NCBI RefSeq assembly: GCF_002210295.1
Contig: NZ_MWQH01000006.1
Location: 186,001-250,000, forward strand
DNA length: 64,000 bases
Source: Fibrobacter sp. UWB5
GTDB lineage: Bacteria; Fibrobacterota; Fibrobacteria; Fibrobacterales; Fibrobacteraceae
Reading direction: 5' to 3'
This document shows positions 1,354 through 37,085 of the stretch, piece after piece. Each line of letters opens with the position of its first letter. The first letter of the stretch is position 1. Both the position numbers and the translations under genes were made by a program. A model generated the notes under the pieces. It worked only from the letters and a program-made list of their open reading frames with translations. It was not told where the DNA came from and ran no database searches.

Positions 1354-1372
1354 AAAAAAGTAGGGAGTAGGC

Positions 1373-1400
1373 CGTAATGACGAATGTGCAATGTGAGATG
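1373..1400. repeat. Heptamer repeat array, four N4ATG units
   Basis: Four consecutive 7-base units each end in ATG (CGTAATG, ACGAATG and two more). Read on the other strand they are CATN4 units. The same period-7 pattern occurs at 7848, 17417 and 36562, so this is a dispersed short tandem repeat and not chance AT-rich spacer. It lies between the DsbA-like promoter and the hairpin-rich spacer to its right. Confidence 0.75.
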
Positions 1401-6523: not shown

Positions 6524-7153
6524 ATGGAAATGATTCAAGACAAGCTGAAGGTCAGCATTGCCTATTCCTTAAAGGAACGCACCGGAAAGATTCTCGAAGA
6601 AGTGCCCGCGAACTACCCGTTCGTGTACATTCACGGGTTCAACAATATTATTCCGGGGCTTGAAGACGCGCTGGAAGGCCGTCACTTGAATGAAAGTTTT
6701 ACTGTCGATATTCCGTTTGAACAGGGCTACGGCCCCTACCGCCCCGACTTGGTGATGGAAGTTCCGAAGGACGAACTCCGCGAAGTGGGCGAAATTTGGC
6801 TCGGCATGGAGCTCGAGATGTACATGGACGAAGACGTGCGCGAATTCCAGCTGCCCGAGACGGCAGACGAGTTCGTGGACGGGCTGAATCTGGACGATGA
6901 CGACGAATCCGACGGAATTTACACGATCAAGGAAATCAAGAAGGACACCGTGGTCGTGGACGGGAACCACCCCTTTGCAGGCAAGGACCTGACTTTCGAC
7001 GTGACGGTGGTCGCCATCGAGCAGCCGAGTTTTACCGAGCTCGAAAGCGGCTACCCCGACCGCGAAGAAGATTTTGACCATTTTGACGACGGCTTCGACG
7101 GGGCCGACGGCGAAGATTTTGACGACAACAACCACAACAGGAGATGGCGCTAA
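6524..7153 (+). CDS. slyD: SlyD-like FKBP-type peptidyl-prolyl isomerase
   Basis: The 209-residue protein matches SlyD: an N-terminal FKBP half with VSIAYSLKERTGKILEE and FVYIHGFNNIIPGLEDALEG, an insert-in-flap region (about residues 75-150), then the returning strands VVVDGNHPFAGKDLTFDVTVVAIE. SlyD catalyses prolyl isomerisation and acts as a chaperone for nascent chains. The usual His/Cys-rich metal-binding tail is replaced by a long Asp/Glu-rich tail (EEDFDHFDDGFDGADGE), so a nickel-handling role is less likely. The start at 6524 is chosen over an in-frame codon at 6407 because homology begins here and the -10 box sits just upstream. The stop overlaps the rpiA start (TAATG). Confidence 0.9.
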   Translation: MEMIQDKLKVSIAYSLKERTGKILEEVPANYPFVYIHGFNNIIPGLEDALEGRHLNESFTVDIPFEQGYGPYRPDLVMEVPKDELREVGEIWLGMELEMYMDEDVREFQLPETADEFVDGLNLDDDDESDGIYTIKEIKKDTVVVDGNHPFAGKDLTFDVTVVAIEQPSFTELESGYPDREEDFDHFDDGFDGADGEDFDDNNHNRRWR

Positions 7154-7842
7154 TGGCATCGATGGACGAACTCAAGAAGGCTGCAGGCGTTCGCGCGGCA
7201 GATATGATCAAGGACGGCATGACCGTGGGTCTTGGAACGGGTAGCACCGCCGCCCACATGGTGAACCGCCTTGCCGAGCGCATCAAGACGGAAGGCCTGC
7301 ATGTTGTGGGCGTGAGCACGAGCTGGAGCACCACGCTGCAGTGCCGTAGCCTCGGCATTCCGCTGAAGGAAATGGGCGAAGTTTCTCACCTGGACATGGT
7401 GATTGACGGTGCCGACGAAATCGACGACCAGCGCAATTTGATCAAGGGCCGTGGCGCTGCCCACCTGCTCGAAAAGATTGTCGCCTCGATGACGGACAAC
7501 TACGTGATTATCGCAGACAGCGGCAAGAAGGTGAACAAGCTCGGCGAAAAGTTCGCCGTACCGCTGGAAATCATTCCGGGTGCCATCGCCGTGGTGACCG
7601 AACGCGTAAAGAAGCTCGGCGGCGACCTCAAGGTGCGTATGGGCGCTCCGGGCAAGGACGGCCCGGTCATCAGTGATAGCGGCAACCTGATTGCAGACGC
7701 CAAGTTCGGCATTATCGAAGACGCCGACAAGCTCGCCCGCGACCTGGAACACATCGTGGGTATCGTGGGTCATGGCCTGTTCGTGGGCATGGCCACCAAG
7801 GTGATTCTCGCCGACGCCGACAAGGGCCTGGTAGAGTTCTAG
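7153..7842 (+). CDS. rpiA: Ribose-5-phosphate isomerase A
   Basis: The 229-residue enzyme interconverts ribose-5-phosphate and ribulose-5-phosphate in the pentose phosphate pathway. Family motifs are present: GLGTGSTA near the N-terminus, DGADEID with the catalytic Asp (about residues 80-86), KGRGAAHLLEK with the catalytic Lys, and GPGAIAVV-like EIIPGAIAVV. The length is close to E. coli RpiA (219). The ATG at 7153 is preferred to the one at 7144. It overlaps the slyD stop as TAATG and stands 9 bases from AGGAG, whereas the earlier ATG would touch the ribosome binding site. Confidence 0.96.
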   Translation: MASMDELKKAAGVRAADMIKDGMTVGLGTGSTAAHMVNRLAERIKTEGLHVVGVSTSWSTTLQCRSLGIPLKEMGEVSHLDMVIDGADEIDDQRNLIKGRGAAHLLEKIVASMTDNYVIIADSGKKVNKLGEKFAVPLEIIPGAIAVVTERVKKLGGDLKVRMGAPGKDGPVISDSGNLIADAKFGIIEDADKLARDLEHIVGIVGHGLFVGMATKVILADADKGLVEF

Positions 7843-7847
7843 AAGAC

Positions 7848-7920
7848 AGGGATGTGAGATGTGAAATGTGTGATTATTCATTTCACATTATTCACTTCAC
7901 ATTAGTCATTTCACATAAAC
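7848..7920. repeat. Inverted heptamer array (N4ATG units then CATN4 units)
   Basis: Three 7-base units ending in ATG (AGGGATG, TGAGATG, TGAAATG) are followed by a degenerate centre and then six 7-base units beginning with CA (CATTTCA, CATTATT and so on). The two halves are inverted relative to each other, so TGTGAAATG and CATTTCACA can pair. The array begins five bases after the rpiA stop and ends just before the terminator. Confidence 0.85.
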
Positions 7921-7921
7921 T

Positions 7922-7955
7922 AAAAAACCCCCCGGTAAGAACCGAGGGATTTTTT
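7922..7955. terminator. Bidirectional terminator between rpiA and the convergent gene
   Basis: An A6 run, a CCCCCCGGT/ACCGAGGGA stem with an AAGA loop, and a T6 run allow termination in both directions. This suits the convergent genes on either side. Confidence 0.9.
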
Positions 7956-7977
7956 AGCGTTATAAACGCGTGCTCAA

Positions 7978-8619
7978 TTAGTCTTCGTCGGCGAGTTCCG
8001 GAGCCTTCTTGATCACGTTGCGACGGCCATAGCGGACCTTGGACGGATCGAAGGTGGTTTCGACGGCTTCGACTGCGGGTTCAGCGGCAGGTGCTGCAGG
8101 GGCAGCGACCGGGGCTTCAACGGCAGGAGCGGCCGGAGTTTCAACCGGAATACGCGGAGCGAGCGGGCGGCGAGCTTCAGGAGCTGCGGCCGGAGCGGCT
8201 TCGACGGCAGGAGCTGCAGCTGCGGGAGCCTGGGCTTCGGCAGCTACGTTCTGAGCTTCAACGTTCTGTTCGCGGCGGCCTTCGCGGCGGTCGCGACGAT
8301 CGCGGCGGTTGCCACGGTCACGTTGTTCATTGCGGTCGCGAGCGGGCTGCTGCTGTTTGTCGGCAGAGCGATTGTCGCGATTTTCCTTAGCAGGACGGTC
8401 CTTGCCATTGTTGTTCTGGCGATTTTCCTTGCGTTCACCGCGCTGAGCCATTTCCTGTGCGCTGATCGGGCGACGGGAAGCCGGCTTCAAGTTCATGTCC
8501 GGGGTGAGCTTCTTGAAAATCGGGGTACGAAGCATGGTAAGGAGCTTGTTAACCTTCGAGAGGATAACGATGCACAGAATCACTGCAACGAGTGAAAGTG
8601 CGAGTGCGATGTATTCCAT
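7978..8619 (-). CDS. Membrane-anchored protein with Arg/Asp-rich and Ala/Pro-rich disordered tail
   Basis: I do not recognise a family. The 213-residue product has one N-terminal membrane helix (about residues 3-25, LALSLVAVILCIVILSKV) and a conserved-looking short segment LLTMLRTPIFKKLTPDM. A strongly charged region follows (about 60-110) with repeats of RDR, DRRDRREGRRE and Asn-rich blocks, then an Ala/Pro/Val/Glu linker (about 115-190) and a final motif FDPSKVRYGRRNVIKK. The charged stretch looks like the disordered RNA-binding arms of RNase E-type scaffolds, but that is only an analogy. The ATG is preferred to an upstream GTG because GAGG lies 8 bases before it. Confidence 0.75.
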   Translation of the reverse strand: MEYIALALSLVAVILCIVILSKVNKLLTMLRTPIFKKLTPDMNLKPASRRPISAQEMAQRGERKENRQNNNGKDRPAKENRDNRSADKQQQPARDRNEQRDRGNRRDRRDRREGRREQNVEAQNVAAEAQAPAAAAPAVEAAPAAAPEARRPLAPRIPVETPAAPAVEAPVAAPAAPAAEPAVEAVETTFDPSKVRYGRRNVIKKAPELADED

Positions 8620-12603: not shown

Positions 12604-13152
12604 GTGAAACCGTCACCGTATTTTGCAGATCGTTTACGTTATTTTTTCAAGCGTTTTTACAGCCCGGAAAAGCTGTACCGCTGGTTTTTGGAAGTAGCCG
12701 GAGATGACTCCGGAGAGTTCAATTTCCCGGCCGCGCTTCAAGGGAACCCCAAGACCGTCGTGTTCCTTACACGTGACATCGACAAATCGACTGCATTTAT
12801 AAAGGGAATGCCCGAAGCATTCTTCAAGAACGCACTCCTTTGCGCTCCCGATACAATGCAGGTCATGATTTCGGCCAAGCACGCCAAAGCGATCTACTAT
12901 ACCGAGCTTGAATGCCGTTACGGTGAGCCGGCCTTTGAAGAACTGCAATACAAAATCAAGGATTTTGGCCCGCAGGTTTGCATTTACCTGGGCGAAGCCT
13001 TCTGGCCCACGCTTTACCTTGCCAAAAAGTGCGGAGCAAACTGCCGCATCGGGTTTACGGACGAACATTGCTATCCGTTCCTGAACATATGCTTGAAACC
13101 CAACAAAATGAGCGAAGCTGCCCTGATTAGCCAGTACTACGGGGTCAAGTAA
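12604..13152 (+). CDS. Conserved-looking protein of unknown function, possibly a glycosyltransferase-9 fragment fold
   Basis: I do not recognise the family. The start is GTG, with TTGGAG seven bases upstream. The 182-residue product has a basic, aromatic N-terminus (YFADRLRYFFKRFYSPEKLYRWFLE) and then alternating strand-helix units (KTVVFLTRDIDKSTAFI, ALLCAPDTMQVMI, VCIYLGEAFWPTLYLAKKCGANCRIGF). That alternation is the texture of the N-terminal Rossmann half of heptosyltransferases, but the catalytic half is absent. The stop overlaps the next start (TAATG), so its function is probably tied to that PHP enzyme. Confidence 0.7.
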   Translation: MKPSPYFADRLRYFFKRFYSPEKLYRWFLEVAGDDSGEFNFPAALQGNPKTVVFLTRDIDKSTAFIKGMPEAFFKNALLCAPDTMQVMISAKHAKAIYYTELECRYGEPAFEELQYKIKDFGPQVCIYLGEAFWPTLYLAKKCGANCRIGFTDEHCYPFLNICLKPNKMSEAALISQYYGVK

Positions 13153-14024
13153 TGCAAAAGGGGTATCCCACAATCATCACAGAGAATGGCGGGTATGCGG
13201 ACCTCCACATGCACACCAAGCTTTCGGATGGTAACCTTTCGGTCGAAGAACTGCTCGTGCTCTGCAAACGCAAGGGCCTCCGTTGCATTTCGATTACCGA
13301 CCACGACAACCTGGATAGCTACAACCTCGCCGCCGAACCCGCCAAGGAAATCGGGCTTGAACTCATTCCCGGCATCGAAATTTCGGCCGTGTGGCAAGGC
13401 AAGGACATCCACATCCTGGGATATTTCTGCGACCCTACGAACCTCGCCCTGAACATGGAACTGCAGGATTTCGCAAAGCAGCGAGTCACCCGCGCAAAAG
13501 CCATCATCAAAAAGCTGAACGCGCTGGGCATCGACATCACCTACGAAAAGGTTGCCACCTACTGCAAGGGCAAGGTTATCGGCCGCCCGCATATCGCCAT
13601 GTCCATGGTCGACGAAGAATACATTTCGAACTTCTCCGAAGCATTCACCAAATATTTAGGTGACGGCTGCGTAGCCTTTGTCGAAAAGAAGGGCCTGAAC
13701 CCGCAGCAGACCATCAAGCTTATCGAAAATGCCGGCGGAATCGCCGTCCTCGCCCACCCCTACAAGTCGGGGCTTTCCGACGAGTTCATCGAGAACATGG
13801 TGGAATGGGGCGTACAAGGGATCGAAGTCTACAGCCCCGCCCAGAAGGGAGCTGTCGGCCGCAAGTACAAGGAAATGGCCCAAAAGTTCGGCCTCGTGGG
13901 CACCGGCGGTTCGGACTTCCATACCGAAGCGGGCGCCTACCCGCCCAACTGCATGAAAATGCCCTACTCCGTCGTGAACGCCCTGCGCGAACGCCGTGAA
14001 AAACTGAGAGCGGAATGGTACTAA
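13152..14024 (+). CDS. PHP-domain phosphoesterase, TrpH/RNase AM-like
   Basis: The 290-residue enzyme has the polymerase-and-histidinol-phosphatase metal site: DLHMHTKLSDG (about residues 17-27), ITDHDN (about 48-53), PGIEIS and GKDIHILGY, then IGRPHIAM, LAHPYK and the C-terminal GGSDFH. This pattern matches E. coli YciV/TrpH (RNase AM), which degrades RNA and short oligonucleotides 5' to 3' and trims rRNA 5' ends. Substrate assignment by homology is reasonable but not certain, because related PHP proteins hydrolyse 3',5'-bisphosphates. It is translationally coupled to the preceding gene. Confidence 0.88.
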   Translation: MQKGYPTIITENGGYADLHMHTKLSDGNLSVEELLVLCKRKGLRCISITDHDNLDSYNLAAEPAKEIGLELIPGIEISAVWQGKDIHILGYFCDPTNLALNMELQDFAKQRVTRAKAIIKKLNALGIDITYEKVATYCKGKVIGRPHIAMSMVDEEYISNFSEAFTKYLGDGCVAFVEKKGLNPQQTIKLIENAGGIAVLAHPYKSGLSDEFIENMVEWGVQGIEVYSPAQKGAVGRKYKEMAQKFGLVGTGGSDFHTEAGAYPPNCMKMPYSVVNALRERREKLRAEWY

Positions 14025-16852: not shown

Positions 16853-17422
16853 ATGGGTGAATTAAGGATACCAGCCAAAGTCAAGATAATCGTAGGGATT
16901 CTCGCTAAAGATTCCCAAGCGGTAGAGGCCGTGCGCGACACGCTCCGCAACCGCTTTGGCGAAGAGGAGCTAGCGCTCCCGCCGTTCCCGTTCACCTTCA
17001 CGAACTACTACGTCGACGAAATCGGGAACGCCCCCGTGCGTGCCTTTTTCAGCTACGAGACTCTGGTCGACCGCGAAACCATTGTCGACATCAAGCTTTG
17101 GAGCAACGACGTCGAACTCGAAATTGCCAAGCAGAACGGCACGCCCGGGCTTCGCCCCGTGAATCTGGACCCCGGCTACATGACGCTCGGACAGTTTTTC
17201 TTGGCGACCACCAAGGACCAGCGCCAGCGCGTATACATGCAACGTGGCATTTTCGTAGAACCCACGCTGTATTTTCAGGACGGGCATTTCCACGCCTTCG
17301 ACTGGACCTACCGCGATTACCAAAGCGAAAAGTACATCCAGTACTTGGAACAAGTGCGCGCCCGCCTCGCCTACCAAATGAGCACCGGAAAACCATATCG
17401 CCTTAGGCGAGACTCCCATTAG
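16853..17422 (+). CDS. DUF4416-family protein
   Basis: The 189-residue cytosolic protein matches the DUF4416 family in layout: KVKIIVGILAKD near the start, FTFTNYYVDEIG, RAFFSYETLVDR, IVDIKLWSNDVE, RPVNLDPGYMTLGQFFLATTKD and the C-terminal FDWTYRDYQSEKYI. The family is conserved in several anaerobic lineages, but no biochemical function is known to me. The C-terminal His codon and stop lie inside the first unit of a heptamer repeat array that fills the gap to the next gene, so its last residue may be repeat-derived. Confidence 0.85.
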   Translation: MGELRIPAKVKIIVGILAKDSQAVEAVRDTLRNRFGEEELALPPFPFTFTNYYVDEIGNAPVRAFFSYETLVDRETIVDIKLWSNDVELEIAKQNGTPGLRPVNLDPGYMTLGQFFLATTKDQRQRVYMQRGIFVEPTLYFQDGHFHAFDWTYRDYQSEKYIQYLEQVRARLAYQMSTGKPYRLRRDSH

Positions 17423-17451
17423 TCATTCCACATTTCACATCACACATCATT
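17417..17451. repeat. Heptamer repeat array spanning stop to start
   Basis: Five consecutive CATN4 units, the first CATTAGT and the last CATCATT, run without slippage from the last sense codon of the DUF4416 gene to the base before the ATG of the DUF486 gene. The array supplies the stop codon of one gene and the whole spacer before the next. Confidence 0.88.
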
Positions 17452-17823
17452 ATGAAAGCCGGAATCTTTACAGTCATTCTCCTGATCATCAGTAACGTCT
17501 TTATGACCGCAGCCTGGTACGGCAACCTCAAGCTCAAAGAAATGCACATCAGCACCGACTGGCCGCTGATTCTGGTGATTCTCGCCTCCTGGGGTGTCGC
17601 CCTCATCGAATATTTCTTCATGATTCCCGCCAATACCATGGGTAGCCGCATTAACGGAGGGCCTTTCACCCTCATGCAGCTCAAGGTCATTCAAGAAGCC
17701 ATCTCCCTGACGGTATTCACCGTCATCGCAACGACCGTTTTCAACAACGAAGCCCTGCAATGGAACCATATTGTGGCCTTCGTTTTGATTGTGGCCGCCG
17801 TATTCTTCGCATTTTTAAAGTAA
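17452..17823 (+). CDS. DUF486/DMT-like small membrane protein
   Basis: The 123-residue product has four predicted membrane helices (IFTVILLIISNVFMTAAWY, WPLILVILASWGVALIEYFF, VIQEAISLTVFTVIATTVF, IVAFVLIVAAVFFAFL). It also shows the conserved IPANTMGSR and FTLMQLKVIQE loops of the DUF486 family, a branch related to small drug/metabolite transporters. It may work as a dimeric transporter, but the substrate is unknown. The start codon directly abuts a heptamer repeat array and lacks a Shine-Dalgarno sequence, which raises the question of how translation is started. Confidence 0.9.
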   Translation: MKAGIFTVILLIISNVFMTAAWYGNLKLKEMHISTDWPLILVILASWGVALIEYFFMIPANTMGSRINGGPFTLMQLKVIQEAISLTVFTVIATTVFNNEALQWNHIVAFVLIVAAVFFAFLK

Positions 17824-22987: not shown

Positions 22988-23584
22988 CTAGTCCTTCTTA
23001 TTCACAAAATCGCGATTTCCAAAGTTGATGTAGAAATATCCATCCAGTTTCTTGTTGCGTACCGGATCGCGCAAGATTCCAATAGCGGCGCGCACGTACT
23101 TGAGTTCCACCAGAATGTGGTCACGGCTCATGCAATTGAGGAACGGGCCTTCGGCAAAAAGGGTCGGGCGCGGTTCATCGGCAATCATCTGTTCCAAGCG
23201 TTCAACCTCTTTCACCAGTCGGCGTTCATGCGCTTCAAGAGTACGAATCAATTCCTTTTGTTCGGCACCGAAAAGGAAGGCAAAACCGAGCGTTCTCGGA
23301 TCATCGTTAAAGCCGGTCAAATGCTTTAGCACTTCCTTGCGCAAAGTTTCTCGACCTTTTTCAGTAATCGAGAAAACCACGCGCTCAGGGCGGTTACCAT
23401 CGCGTTCGCTACGGCCAGCAATGTCACCATGCTTTTCGAGTGTCGCAAGCCTGTTGTAAACGGTCGACGTGCTGAGGTTTGCCCAGCGGTCCAGTTCGCG
23501 GTTGCGAACCTCGGTAATGATGTCGTAACCACTGCGTTCCTTTTCCAGGATCAGGCCCAGAAGTACCAAGTCATAACGATTCAT
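22988..23584 (-). CDS. PadR-family transcriptional regulator
   Basis: The 198-residue protein has an N-terminal winged helix typical of PadR (DLVLLGLILEKERSGYDIITEV, then LSTSTVYNRLATLEKHGDI and RVVFSITEKGRE, residues 4-85). A C-terminal helical part (PadR C-terminal, Vir-like; about 95-180) contains the coiled dimerisation helix HERRLVKEVERLEQMI. Such proteins are usually repressors released by small ligands. Overlapping palindromes in its own promoter suggest autoregulation. It lies between the GH94 gene and pckG, and both could be targets, but only its own promoter shows the sites. Confidence 0.9.
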   Translation of the reverse strand: MNRYDLVLLGLILEKERSGYDIITEVRNRELDRWANLSTSTVYNRLATLEKHGDIAGRSERDGNRPERVVFSITEKGRETLRKEVLKHLTGFNDDPRTLGFAFLFGAEQKELIRTLEAHERRLVKEVERLEQMIADEPRPTLFAEGPFLNCMSRDHILVELKYVRAAIGILRDPVRNKKLDGYFYINFGNRDFVNKKD

Positions 23585-31210: not shown

Positions 31211-31666
31211 ATGGTTCCGACTTCTCAGAAGGAAATCAATCAGCGGGAAAAGGACCTGTACTACACGGTCCTTTCCTTCCTGAAAAAGATTCGCAAGGCA
31301 GGCAAGACTACCGCGAAGGAGTGGGACGAATACCGTTCCGCTATCAAGAGTGTTGCCATGACCGCCGATATGGGTAAGGCCGCTGACCTGTGGACCATGG
31401 ACAACTTGGACCAGTTCAGCCCCGACAAGAGCCAGCTTCCGCCGCTCAACGACATGGAATACGTGGCACGCGTATCGCCCGAGTTCCTTTCGCAGCTCAT
31501 GGAAGCCCTGTATTACGGTATGCTGAACCCGACCCAGGCGAACATGATTTCCGACGAGATCCAGGACGCCGATCCGGAATACGTGACTTCGGCCTCGCTC
31601 GAGGAACTGCTCGTAAAACTCTGGATTGGGAACGCTAAAAGCTACCGCAAGATGATAGCGAACTAA
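31211..31666 (+). CDS. Unknown helical protein coupled to trmFO
   Basis: I do not recognise a family. The 151-residue product appears all-helical: an N-terminal amphipathic helix (KEINQREKDLYYTVLSFLKKIRK), a central loop region with Pro and Asp (LDQFSPDKSQLPPLNDMEYV) and C-terminal helices (LSQLMEALYYGMLNPTQANMISDEI, LEELLVKLWIG). It contains no cysteine, signal or membrane segment. It starts 9 bases after the AICAR transformylase stop and its own stop overlaps the trmFO start (TAATG), so the three genes form one unit. The coupling suggests a link to folate-dependent chemistry or tRNA, but there is no direct evidence. Confidence 0.8.
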   Translation: MVPTSQKEINQREKDLYYTVLSFLKKIRKAGKTTAKEWDEYRSAIKSVAMTADMGKAADLWTMDNLDQFSPDKSQLPPLNDMEYVARVSPEFLSQLMEALYYGMLNPTQANMISDEIQDADPEYVTSASLEELLVKLWIGNAKSYRKMIAN

Positions 31667-32997
31667 TGAACGAACGCGTACGTGTAATTGGTGGCGGCCT
31701 TGCTGGCTGCGAAGCGGCTTTGCAACTGGCGAGCCGCGGTTTTAAGGTTGACCTATATGAAATGCGCCCGGTAAGGCAGACCCCTGCCCACAAGGACGGT
31801 CATTTGGCACAATTAGTTTGTTCCAACAGCTTTAAGGCATTGGGCATTACAAGCGCCCACGGACTTTTAAAGCAGGAACTCACGATGCTCGGAAGCTTTC
31901 TGCTGGATTCGGCCCGCGAAGCGGCCGTGCCCGCAGGCGACTCACTCACTGTAAACCGCGATATTTTCAGCGAATCGGTCGAAAAGAAGATTGCTGAGTC
32001 GCCCAACATCACGTTACACCGCGAAGAAGTCACAAGCCTCGAAGGCGACTGTCCGACTCTTGTAGCCGCGGGTCCCTTGGCCAGTGATGCGCTCGCCGAC
32101 GACATTTTCAAGCGCCTCGGCAGCAACCGTCTGCATTTCTTTGACGCAATCGCTCCGGTTGTCGAGACCGACAGTATCGACTTTGACCACGCCTTTTACC
32201 GCAACCGTTGGGAAAAGGGCGAAACAGCCGACTTTATCAACTGCCCGCTGGACAAGGAAACCTACACCGAATTTGTGCGCAAGCTCTGCGAAGCCGAAAG
32301 CACGGAACCGCGCCCGTTCGAAAAGAACGAACTGTTCGAAGGCTGCTTGCCGGTGGAAGAAATGGCCCGCCGCGGTTTTGAAACGCTCCGTCACGGCCCC
32401 ATGCGCCCGATTGGCCTTGGCCTCGGCAACAACGGAAAACTGTGGTACGCCGTCATCCAGCTCCGCGCCGAAAACAAGCAGAAAACCTTGTTCAACATGG
32501 TCGGTTTCCAGACTCGCCTCAAATGGGGAACGCAAAAGGAAATCTTCACCATGGTGCCGGCTCTCAAGAACGCGAAATTCGCGCGCCTCGGCTGCATGCA
32601 CCGCAACACCTTCATTGAATCGCCCAAGTTCCTGGACAAAACGCTCCGTCTGCGTCCAGATCTTGAATGCGCCAAGGGCATTCCGCCTACCTGGTTTGCA
32701 GGACAAATTACCGGCAGCGAAGGCTACACCGAAGCGGTGGCCACCGGCTGGTACGCCGCCTGGAATATGGCGCAGACGATTCTACACGGTCATGCCGACC
32801 CGCTACCCGACGAGAGTTGCATCGGTTCGCTCATGAACCGCCTGGTGGAAGAAAACGAAGACTTCCAGCCCATGAATTTCAACTTCGGGCTGCTCCCCCA
32901 CCACGAAGGCCTCAAGAAAAAGAATAAAAAAGAGATTCTTGCGGCTCGCGCCGAAGAATCTGTTCGAAAGTGGATTGCCGATAGGAAATTGGCCTAA
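31666..32997 (+). CDS. trmFO: Folate/FAD-dependent tRNA (uracil-54-C5)-methyltransferase TrmFO
   Basis: The 443-residue flavoprotein makes ribothymidine at position 54 of tRNA using methylene-THF. The FAD-binding GGGLAGCEAA lies at residues 9-18. It is followed by the family blocks YEMRP, HLAQLVCSNSFKA (with the conserved Cys), VPAGDSLTVNRDIFS, PLASDALADDI, FFDAIAPVVETDSIDF, KETYTEFV, FEGCLPVEEMARRG, GPMRPIG and WFAGQITGSEGYTEAVATG. The length matches the family (about 435-445). Together with the AICAR transformylase gene upstream it makes a small folate-using operon. It overlaps the convergent FISUMP gene by four bases. Confidence 0.97.
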   Translation: MNERVRVIGGGLAGCEAALQLASRGFKVDLYEMRPVRQTPAHKDGHLAQLVCSNSFKALGITSAHGLLKQELTMLGSFLLDSAREAAVPAGDSLTVNRDIFSESVEKKIAESPNITLHREEVTSLEGDCPTLVAAGPLASDALADDIFKRLGSNRLHFFDAIAPVVETDSIDFDHAFYRNRWEKGETADFINCPLDKETYTEFVRKLCEAESTEPRPFEKNELFEGCLPVEEMARRGFETLRHGPMRPIGLGLGNNGKLWYAVIQLRAENKQKTLFNMVGFQTRLKWGTQKEIFTMVPALKNAKFARLGCMHRNTFIESPKFLDKTLRLRPDLECAKGIPPTWFAGQITGSEGYTEAVATGWYAAWNMAQTILHGHADPLPDESCIGSLMNRLVEENEDFQPMNFNFGLLPHHEGLKKKNKKEILAARAEESVRKWIADRKLA

Positions 32998-35852: not shown

Positions 35853-36587
35853 ATGCGGCAGTTTGACGTTATTGTTCTCGAAGAAAACTCCCCGCAATTC
35901 GATAACTGGACACCCCCTTTTGAAGACCCGGCCCTCGGCTGGTTGCACGACTATGACTGGAACCGCCCGTTGCAAAGTATCGATGCGGAATGGGTCGTCA
36001 TTACGCAGCCCGCGGTGAAGATTGACCGCGAATTTTTGAATAACTTGGCCGAAGTCACCGAAGGATTCCCGATGGTGGACGCCTTTGCACCGCGCCTAAA
36101 GTGTGACGGAAAATTCCATGGCGGGCTGTTGCTTGCCGGAAGCAAAGGGTTCTCCCCTATTTCTGAAAACGAGAAGATGCGGTATGTTGCAGCCCCGAAC
36201 CCGATGATTGCGGTGTTTTCGAGCCGCATTATCCAACGCACCGGGTTGTTCGATTTGGACCTGCCGCCCGAATTCAGACTGCTGGATTACGCCCTCCGTA
36301 TGGCTCACGCCGGCGGAAAGATGTTCAGCGTGCCATATCTTGTGGCAAGAACTTCGCAACTTACCGACGCTGGCCGCCTAAATCAAGTCGCTCCGCTGTG
36401 GGAAATCTATTACAAGACACTCCCCGTTGGTCTGCTATCTGCCTTCACGTTCCGCCATCTGACCATGGCCCCCAAATTCTTGGGGTTCGACAAAGGCAAG
36501 AAACGTCGCCTGTTCAAGCGCGACAAGGCAACAGCTTTATCAAAACTTACGGCAGATTATTTGAAATGTGTAATGTGTGATGATTAA
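35853..36587 (+). CDS. Glycosyltransferase-like protein with a repeat-encoded C-terminus
   Basis: The 244-residue product has a GT-A-like texture: FDVIVLEENSP, WVVITQPAVKIDREFLNNLAEV, FAPRLKCDGKFHGG, MIAVFSSRIIQRTGLFDLDLPPEFRLLDYALRMAHAGGKMFSVPYL. The end of that run is the usual acceptor-side helix of family 2 glycosyltransferases. No clear DxD is visible, so activity is uncertain. The last eight residues (LKCVMCDD) and the stop codon are encoded by the first units of a heptamer repeat array, so the natural C-terminus has been replaced or extended by repeat DNA. It follows the PorV-like gene by 12 bases and is probably co-transcribed. Confidence 0.7.
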   Translation: MRQFDVIVLEENSPQFDNWTPPFEDPALGWLHDYDWNRPLQSIDAEWVVITQPAVKIDREFLNNLAEVTEGFPMVDAFAPRLKCDGKFHGGLLLAGSKGFSPISENEKMRYVAAPNPMIAVFSSRIIQRTGLFDLDLPPEFRLLDYALRMAHAGGKMFSVPYLVARTSQLTDAGRLNQVAPLWEIYYKTLPVGLLSAFTFRHLTMAPKFLGFDKGKKRRLFKRDKATALSKLTADYLKCVMCDD

Positions 36588-36641
36588 TGAACAATGAATA
36601 ATTAATCATTTTTCATTCCACATCGCACACTTCACATCCTA
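36562..36641. repeat. Inverted heptamer array overlapping a gene end
   Basis: Five in-phase N4ATG units (TGAAATG, TGTAATG and so on) lead through an AATAATT-AAT centre to five CATN4 units (CATTTTT, CATTCCA and so on). ATGATTAAT and ATTAATCAT near the centre form a 9-bp dyad. The left half codes the last residues of the glycosyltransferase-like protein, and the right half reaches the stop of the convergent membrane-protein gene. Confidence 0.88.
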
Positions 36642-37085
36642 AAAAAACACCCAGACGGCGAGCCAGAAGACCATCAGGCAAAATTCCATTTCCTTTGAAA
36701 TTTTAGAAAGGAACGTGCTGCATAGCGTCATGCAAAGCAGGGCTGCGATGCGAGTCCAGGCAATGTCAATGCCACGATAATAAAGGGCAATGCCGCCAAA
36801 GAGTTCAATCCAGCACCAGAGCGATTGCGCCAGCACCAGGTAACGCCTGCGGTAAAGCGTCAGCGAGGTAGTCGAAAGGCAGAGGCACAGAGCGAGCATG
36901 CGGAACGGGTAATGTTCCAAAGTCGGGTCAATGGTTTCGCCGGCAAAATAAGTGAACACGCTGAACAGAACCAGGAAGCCGGCAAGCAGGCCGCCATTGC
37001 GGTACGGCGACGAACCCTTGCGCCACAGGAACGAGGCGCAACCGAGGGCAATCAAGCAAGAAAGCGAATTGGCAAGAGGAGTCAT
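36639..37085 (-). CDS. Small membrane protein, last gene of the cytochrome/NrfD operon
   Basis: The 148-residue product has about five membrane helices (LSCLIALGCASFLW, LLAGFLVLFSVFTYFAGE, FRMLALCLCLSTTSL, LVLAQSLWCWIELFGGIALYY, RIAALLCMTLCSTF) and short basic loops (RRRY). I do not recognise the family. Its start overlaps the NrfD-cytochrome stop (TAATG), so it is translated with that complex and may be an accessory membrane subunit standing where ActF/ActG-type proteins stand in alternative complex III (inference from position). The stop lies at the edge of a heptamer repeat array. Confidence 0.75.
   Translation of the reverse strand: MTPLANSLSCLIALGCASFLWRKGSSPYRNGGLLAGFLVLFSVFTYFAGETIDPTLEHYPFRMLALCLCLSTTSLTLYRRRYLVLAQSLWCWIELFGGIALYYRGIDIAWTRIAALLCMTLCSTFLSKISKEMEFCLMVFWLAVWVFF

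Follow-up and report, generated by a model that had tools for sequence, protein, structure and literature searches.

The genome of Fibrobacter sp. UWB5 harbors arrays of a degenerate 7-bp unit, CATYNCW, dispersed over about 48 loci, most of them palindromes that stand in one fixed orientation close behind stop codons. The arrays turn over between species, and ordinary terminators are depleted in the spacers that hold the palindromic ones, in a genus that carries Rho. We tentatively interpret the arrays, with rather less than even confidence, as a degenerate, palindromic variant of the heptamer repeats of other bacteria (STRR/TAACTGA) that may act like REP hairpins at transcript 3' ends. Judged from sequence, a REP-like role would be the single most likely function, the serious rivals being that the arrays bind a protein or that they are a neutral by-product.

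The genome studied (3.36 Mb in 17 contigs, rated 100% complete) was analyzed through stretches of its sequence and pattern searches, with genes called by a simple codon-usage script rather than a standard gene finder. The window, as used below, is the whole 64,000-nt stretch at positions 186001-250000 of contig 6.

The heptamer unit and its arrays

An earlier note on the window described four loci with 7-base units that begin with CAT or, on the other strand, end with ATG. All four are present, with runs of four ATG, three ATG and three CAT, five CAT, and five ATG and three CAT units, respectively. The first (1361..1400) is a single-arm, mixed-family array in which the heptads TAGGGAG and TAGGCCG (1361-1374) stand just upstream of the four ATG units (1377-1400). 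The second follows by 5 nt the stop of the gene at 7144..7842 (plus strand), which served to fetch the equivalent site in 29 genomes. It comprises a left arm of consensus ATGWGNR (7852..7868, plus strand, with the three ATG units), a 10-nt centre TGTGATTATT (7869..7878) and a right CATYNCW arm (7879..7916, plus strand) with one broken unit (CAC for CAT) and the three CAT units at 7900-7916. An ordinary bidirectional intrinsic terminator adjoins this array (7925..7957) and is kept in sister genomes that lack the ATG/CAT array. At the third locus, a single arm of five CATYNCW units (17417..17447, plus strand) runs across the stop of the gene at 16853-17422, its 3' edge just before the start of the gene at 17452-17823. 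At the fourth, a left arm of five ATG units (36566..36596, plus strand) overlaps the last codons and the stop (36587) of the gene at 35853-36587, followed by a 10-nt centre, AATAATTAAT (36597..36606), and a right arm (36607..36637, plus strand, three CAT units at 36607-36623) that comes to within 1 nt of the convergent gene's stop (gene at 36639-37085). The placement at gene ends that the note reported is thus borne out, with the array from 7848 following the stop at 7842 and those from 17417 and 36562 overlapping gene ends. Its statement that the phase is kept for up to 11 units is correct only if the strand switch within a dyad is allowed.

The note had proposed to count such runs throughout the genome and to compare spacers with shuffled ones, and the arrays withstood the latter comparison. 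A genome-wide pattern search for four CATN4 units gave 83 matches versus 8 with the reversed control, and a stricter pattern, CATYNCWCATYNCWCAT, gave 114 versus none, with matches to the array pattern falling at approximately 48 loci. Spacers in the window contain six period-7 CAT/ATG runs of at least three units, where 1000 dinucleotide shuffles gave a mean of 0.06 and a maximum of 2; no such run lies inside the window genes. The consensus CATYNCW (C-A-T-(T/C)-N-C-(A/T)) was derived from 233 units for which CAT itself was the criterion of choice. Position 4 is a pyrimidine in 228 of these, position 6 is C in 206 and position 7 is A or T in 227, so the four bases that follow CAT in the proposed CATN4 unit are not free. 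The most frequent unit, CATTTCA, makes up just 52 of the 233, leaving most arrays without a single invariant heptamer. Arms are three to seven tandem 7-bp units long.

The periodicity is also seen when no motif is assumed. We searched 463 kb from eight Fibrobacter genomes for 28-nt windows that match themselves at a given lag. The 54 kb of spacer contained 42 self-matching segments at lag 7, five at lag 6 and one at lag 12, with the remaining lags between 4 and 13 empty; the 408 kb of genes contained five at lag 7. Period 7 is therefore dominant among the intergenic repeats across the genus. Adjacent units agree at N no more often than units from a random pool (0.333 versus 0.331), and recent tandem duplication was rejected as the source of each array since neighboring units are no likelier to be alike than random ones. 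The units are distributed as if each were drawn separately from a single motif.

Position, orientation and folding

None of 44 array loci lies inside genes. Thirty-five of the 44 arrays examined are dyads, all 35 with the ATG arm preceding the CAT arm, and the other nine are single-arm arrays without folding. The gap between the arms is most commonly 10 nt (23 of 35), and in 28 of 35 it is 3, 10 or 17 nt, a spacing that keeps the heptad phase. Immediately 5' of the CAT arm, the base composition is TAATTACT, and the centre of the dyads is AATT-like and palindromic. The 35 dyads lie between convergent (13), tandem (19) and divergent (3) genes. In the 18 tandem cases with usable gene calls, the mean gap from the upstream stop is 4.6 nt, where random placement in the free spacer would give 28 nt, and the upstream stop is nearer than the next start in 17 of the 18. 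Of 210 frames through the purine arms, 145 contain a stop codon, versus 12 of 210 in the opposite reading, so that dyads tend to terminate the frames of both neighboring genes at once.

Ordinary terminators are depleted in palindrome spacers. They occur in 3 of 13 convergent spacers with a dyad versus 26 of 40 without arrays (p=0.011), and in 1 of 19 tandem spacers with a dyad versus 35 of 92 without (p=0.006); the intrinsic terminators in just 4 of the 35 palindrome spacers stand beside the array. This depletion could reflect removal of terminators by insertion and not their replacement by arrays. Rho is found throughout the genus sample, including this genome. Its usual length is about 420 amino acids, and the open frame in the genus spans roughly 610-720 codons (G000 contig 5:247450-247674), which suggests a large extra domain.

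RNA folding of the dyads gives energies from -13 to -32 kcal/mol, with a mean z of -5 relative to plain shuffles. The earlier note had pointed out inverted arrays that can fold. The inversion is real, yet facing units across the dyad pair at degenerate positions no more often than at random (N 0.255 versus 0.330). Because the degenerate positions show no excess pairing or covariation between arms, base pairing as such is not under selection, the hairpin was rejected as the selected feature, and the low folding energy is a by-product of the inverted consensus. No T-run or U-tract was found 3' of the arrays. Like intrinsic terminators, they place a hairpin downstream of stops that is bidirectional at convergent genes, but they lack both the GC-rich stem and the U-tract that define such terminators, their stem being imperfect and AT-rich, and ordinary terminators exist in the genus as distinct elements.

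As described in previous studies, REP hairpins in Escherichia coli stabilize 3' ends without terminating transcription (PMC13289151), and ribosomes stall at such hairpins if the distance to a stop codon is 15 nt or less (PMC12306157). The arrays resemble REP/BIME elements as extragenic palindromes a few nucleotides from stops, in convergent and tandem spacers, that offer a hairpin without a U-tract. Under the REP-like reading that we favor, arrays would arise repeatedly at gene junctions and then be reworked as whole heptads are gained, lost or exchanged for others. Each might provide a transcript 3'-end hairpin, directly after the stop and the same from both sides, that protects or marks the RNA end where the ordinary hairpin-plus-U terminator is absent, and transcription at these spacers would probably be ended by Rho. 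Speaking against this reading are the lack of covariation between arms and of a U-tract, the nine single-arm arrays and the three divergent dyads. In contrast to REP/BIME elements, the arrays have a period of 7, no fixed sequence or GTAG foot, and arms that are unmatched at degenerate positions. Actual descent from a REP or MITE family mobilized by a Y1 transposase (RAYT) would account for dispersed extragenic palindromes and is the least credible of the origins considered. The Y1 transposase family PF01797 has no match in this genome, in which CAT arrays are more numerous than in any other genome counted, and no conserved foot was seen and no two examined arrays are alike in the way that copies would be; the RAYT/REP origin was rejected for want of PF01797.

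Turnover among Fibrobacter genomes

Across the genus, genomes have between 0 and 114 CATYNCW matches, with this genome the highest of those counted. For a second family, TAGRMAG, the counts lie between 0 and 218 and rank the genomes differently, and an unbiased scan revealed further heptad families (TAGTTAY, GAATTCS, GAGAGAC, GAGGTWY, GAGCKRY, AGGGTRT and GAACAAY). The comparison with stop codons and other genomes that the earlier note had recommended confirms anchoring at stops, and it reveals empty and filled sites as well as other heptad words in sister genomes. At the stop of the gene at 7144-7842, the ATG/CAT dyad stands in this genome, TAGRMAG-type heptads in the related genomes G004, G009 and G019 (protein 99-100% identical), KAGTTAY in G035 and TAGTTAY in G001 and G018, and the other genomes have none. 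Between the genes at 16853-17422 and 17452-17823, CATYNCW here corresponds to CTACTKY in G009. The site at 36566-36637 is a diverged shared array in G004 and empty in G009. A dyad of about 75 bp follows the gene at 22988-23584 in G004, with nothing at this site in either this genome or G009, and TTAGATC-type heptads occur 3' of the gene at 31211-31666 only in G004. The latter gene overlaps the next (31666-32997) at stop and start (TAATGA, window 31660-31675); in the G004 counterpart, heptads lie between the two genes and the N-terminus of the downstream protein is altered. The different words that sister species carry at the same stops suggest a rapidly changing class of repeat at gene ends. 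In G009, one composite junction (L133:12184-12391, about 200 bp) carries three or more heptad families in succession, its units grading from word to word (AATCTCT, AATTCCT, CACACCT, CATACCT).

This genome and G004 have 18 orthologous arrays in common, with flanks 82-97% identical; several of them differ by 7-nt indels and several are almost wholly rearranged. The differences amount to 17% at Y, 23% at N and 17% at W, compared with 4, 4 and 5% at C-A-T and 11% at C, and a neutral simulation with the same locus selection gave, for this divergence, about 10% change at CAT and 17% at C. Ascertainment was therefore rejected as the sole cause of the apparent constraint, simulated change at CAT being about 0.10 against 0.04 observed, with the caveat that the loci of both sets were picked by motif, which makes the comparison with the simulation not a clean one. 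In a stricter set of shared arrays, changes numbered 4 of 289 at CAT, 1 of 75 at C and 10 of 75 at N. At N and W, the substitutions look more like an exchange of units than like point mutation: W changes were A/T in 13 of 18 versus 26% expected, and N changes were transitions in 8 of 25 versus 60% expected. Given this pattern and the whole-heptad indels, the arrays are reworked by units with the motif kept.

Such a unit-to-unit spectrum and the fast turnover would also be expected of a neutral by-product of replication slippage or error-prone break filling between genes, which would survive where harmless, that is, just after stops and in the orientation whose purine arms supply stop codons. 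Polymerase slippage has been proposed for heptanucleotide repeats, the commonest class in most repeat-rich bacteria according to Mrazek as cited in PMC4679880. We regard this explanation as possible but doubtful: one consensus at about 48 unlinked loci requires a trans-acting factor, slippage predicts alike neighboring units where none were seen, and neither the scarcity of changes that the stricter set shows at CAT and C nor the centre fixed at 10 nt agrees with it.

The apparent constraint on CAT and C relative to a simulation with matching ascertainment, together with independent draws both along and between arms, is what binding arrays would show. A candidate protein might read CATYNCW every 7 bp and spread from the dyad centre in an omega- or ParB-like manner, with the other families as sites of other proteins. 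The omega protein of plasmid pSM19035 binds WATCACW heptads and needs four or more contiguous repeats (PMC9499535); the ATCACW part of its heptad is contained in CATYNCW, and its parS shares with our arrays contiguous, degenerate 7-bp units, direct and inverted, in groups of four or more. We nevertheless consider this reading rather unlikely. Here the repeats occupy about 48 chromosomal loci at gene ends, not promoters, and several unrelated families occur in one genome and at the same stop codons. Omega (PF07764) was not found above the cut-off in 61 genomes including this one and RHH_1 (PF01402) has no match in this genome, negatives that cover these folds and that divergent families could escape; binding by omega or RHH proteins was rejected accordingly.

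Heptamer repeats beyond the genus and possible origins

Screening 85,000 species for runs of four CATYNCW units yielded at least 116 such stretches. The matches listed include Prevotella, Flavobacterium, Chryseobacterium, Cyanobacteria, Planctomycetes, Clostridia and Acidobacteria, as well as a Fibrobacter succinogenes MAG with a CATYNCW dyad like those of this genome around the centre AATTACTCAT. Many of the matches listed are near-exact repeats, and others are degenerate and flanked by more heptad families. Among the matches listed, those with both arms inside about 250 bp run ATG-then-CAT in 14 cases and the reverse in one.

This polarity bears on templated synthesis at DNA ends, in which a telomerase-like or other reverse transcriptase would extend both 3' ends of a break that are then joined at AATT. 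The strand that grows 5' to 3' toward the centre would then be the same in both arms, as it reads in all 35 dyads here and in 14 of the 15 two-armed cases listed from other phyla, and independent draws of units and a palindromic AATT centre would follow as well. Even so, we judge it very improbable, with no match to the reverse transcriptase family PF00078 in this genome, which divergent families could escape, and Ku (PF02735) not detected in the genus sample, this genome included. A reverse transcriptase or telomerase-like origin and Ku-dependent end joining were rejected on these two negatives, respectively.

Among the nearest known counterparts are the TAACTGA heptamers, which occur in Beggiatoaceae, Cyanobacteria and Bacteroidetes (PMC4679880), together with cyanobacterial STRR and the long simple sequence repeats of prokaryotes. 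Like these STRR-type repeats, the Fibrobacter arrays are dispersed, intergenic tandems of a 7-bp unit that overlap gene ends by a few codons, one orientation gives stops in all frames, some arrays are split by related heptamers, and no mechanism is known. In contrast to them, the Fibrobacter unit is degenerate at two or more positions in every array instead of an invariant heptamer, the arrays are anchored at stops rather than starts, several families occur in the genus, and most arrays are palindromic (35 of 44 inverted) rather than direct repeats; a Beggiatoaceae genome had one indirect repeat among 170 sets (PMC4679880). The likeness to cyanobacterial short tandem heptamers drawn in the earlier note is thus sound but incomplete, as the orientation and centre of the palindrome are fixed and the phenomenon is specific neither to this unit nor to this genus. 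The note knew of no such description for Fibrobacter, and the genome paper of F. succinogenes S85 indeed makes no mention of such arrays.

Heptamer repeats have been on record in bacteria for decades and, to our knowledge, still lack a mechanism. In Fibrobacter there are many families within one genus, empty and filled sites at the same stop codon in sister species, a fixed polarity and centre, and fixed and variable motif positions that can be separated. These features are absent in the earlier cases, and they make the origin of the arrays and their role, at RNA 3' ends or through a bound protein, testable. It is conceivable, though unlikely, that a trans-acting process writes degenerate heptads on gene ends in many phyla, with a species-specific 'word' and the same strand outward, and does so without reverse transcriptase, REP transposase or Ku; if true, it would explain the long-unexplained dispersal of STRR/TAACTGA-type repeats.

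The arrays also blur gene ends, as some stops, C-terminal codons and one apparent signal peptide are made of heptads. The last case is found in G004 (L130:3324-3370, minus strand), at the ortholog of the junction 3' of the gene at 13152-14024, where the start of the next gene contains CTCTCGT heptads that apparently encode part of its signal peptide; they are absent here. At one locus on contig 3 of this genome (L034, approximately 8100-8230), an array and its flanks are identical over about 130 bp to those of a second species (L149), in an unusually conserved spacer whose neighboring sequence differs by 6-8%.
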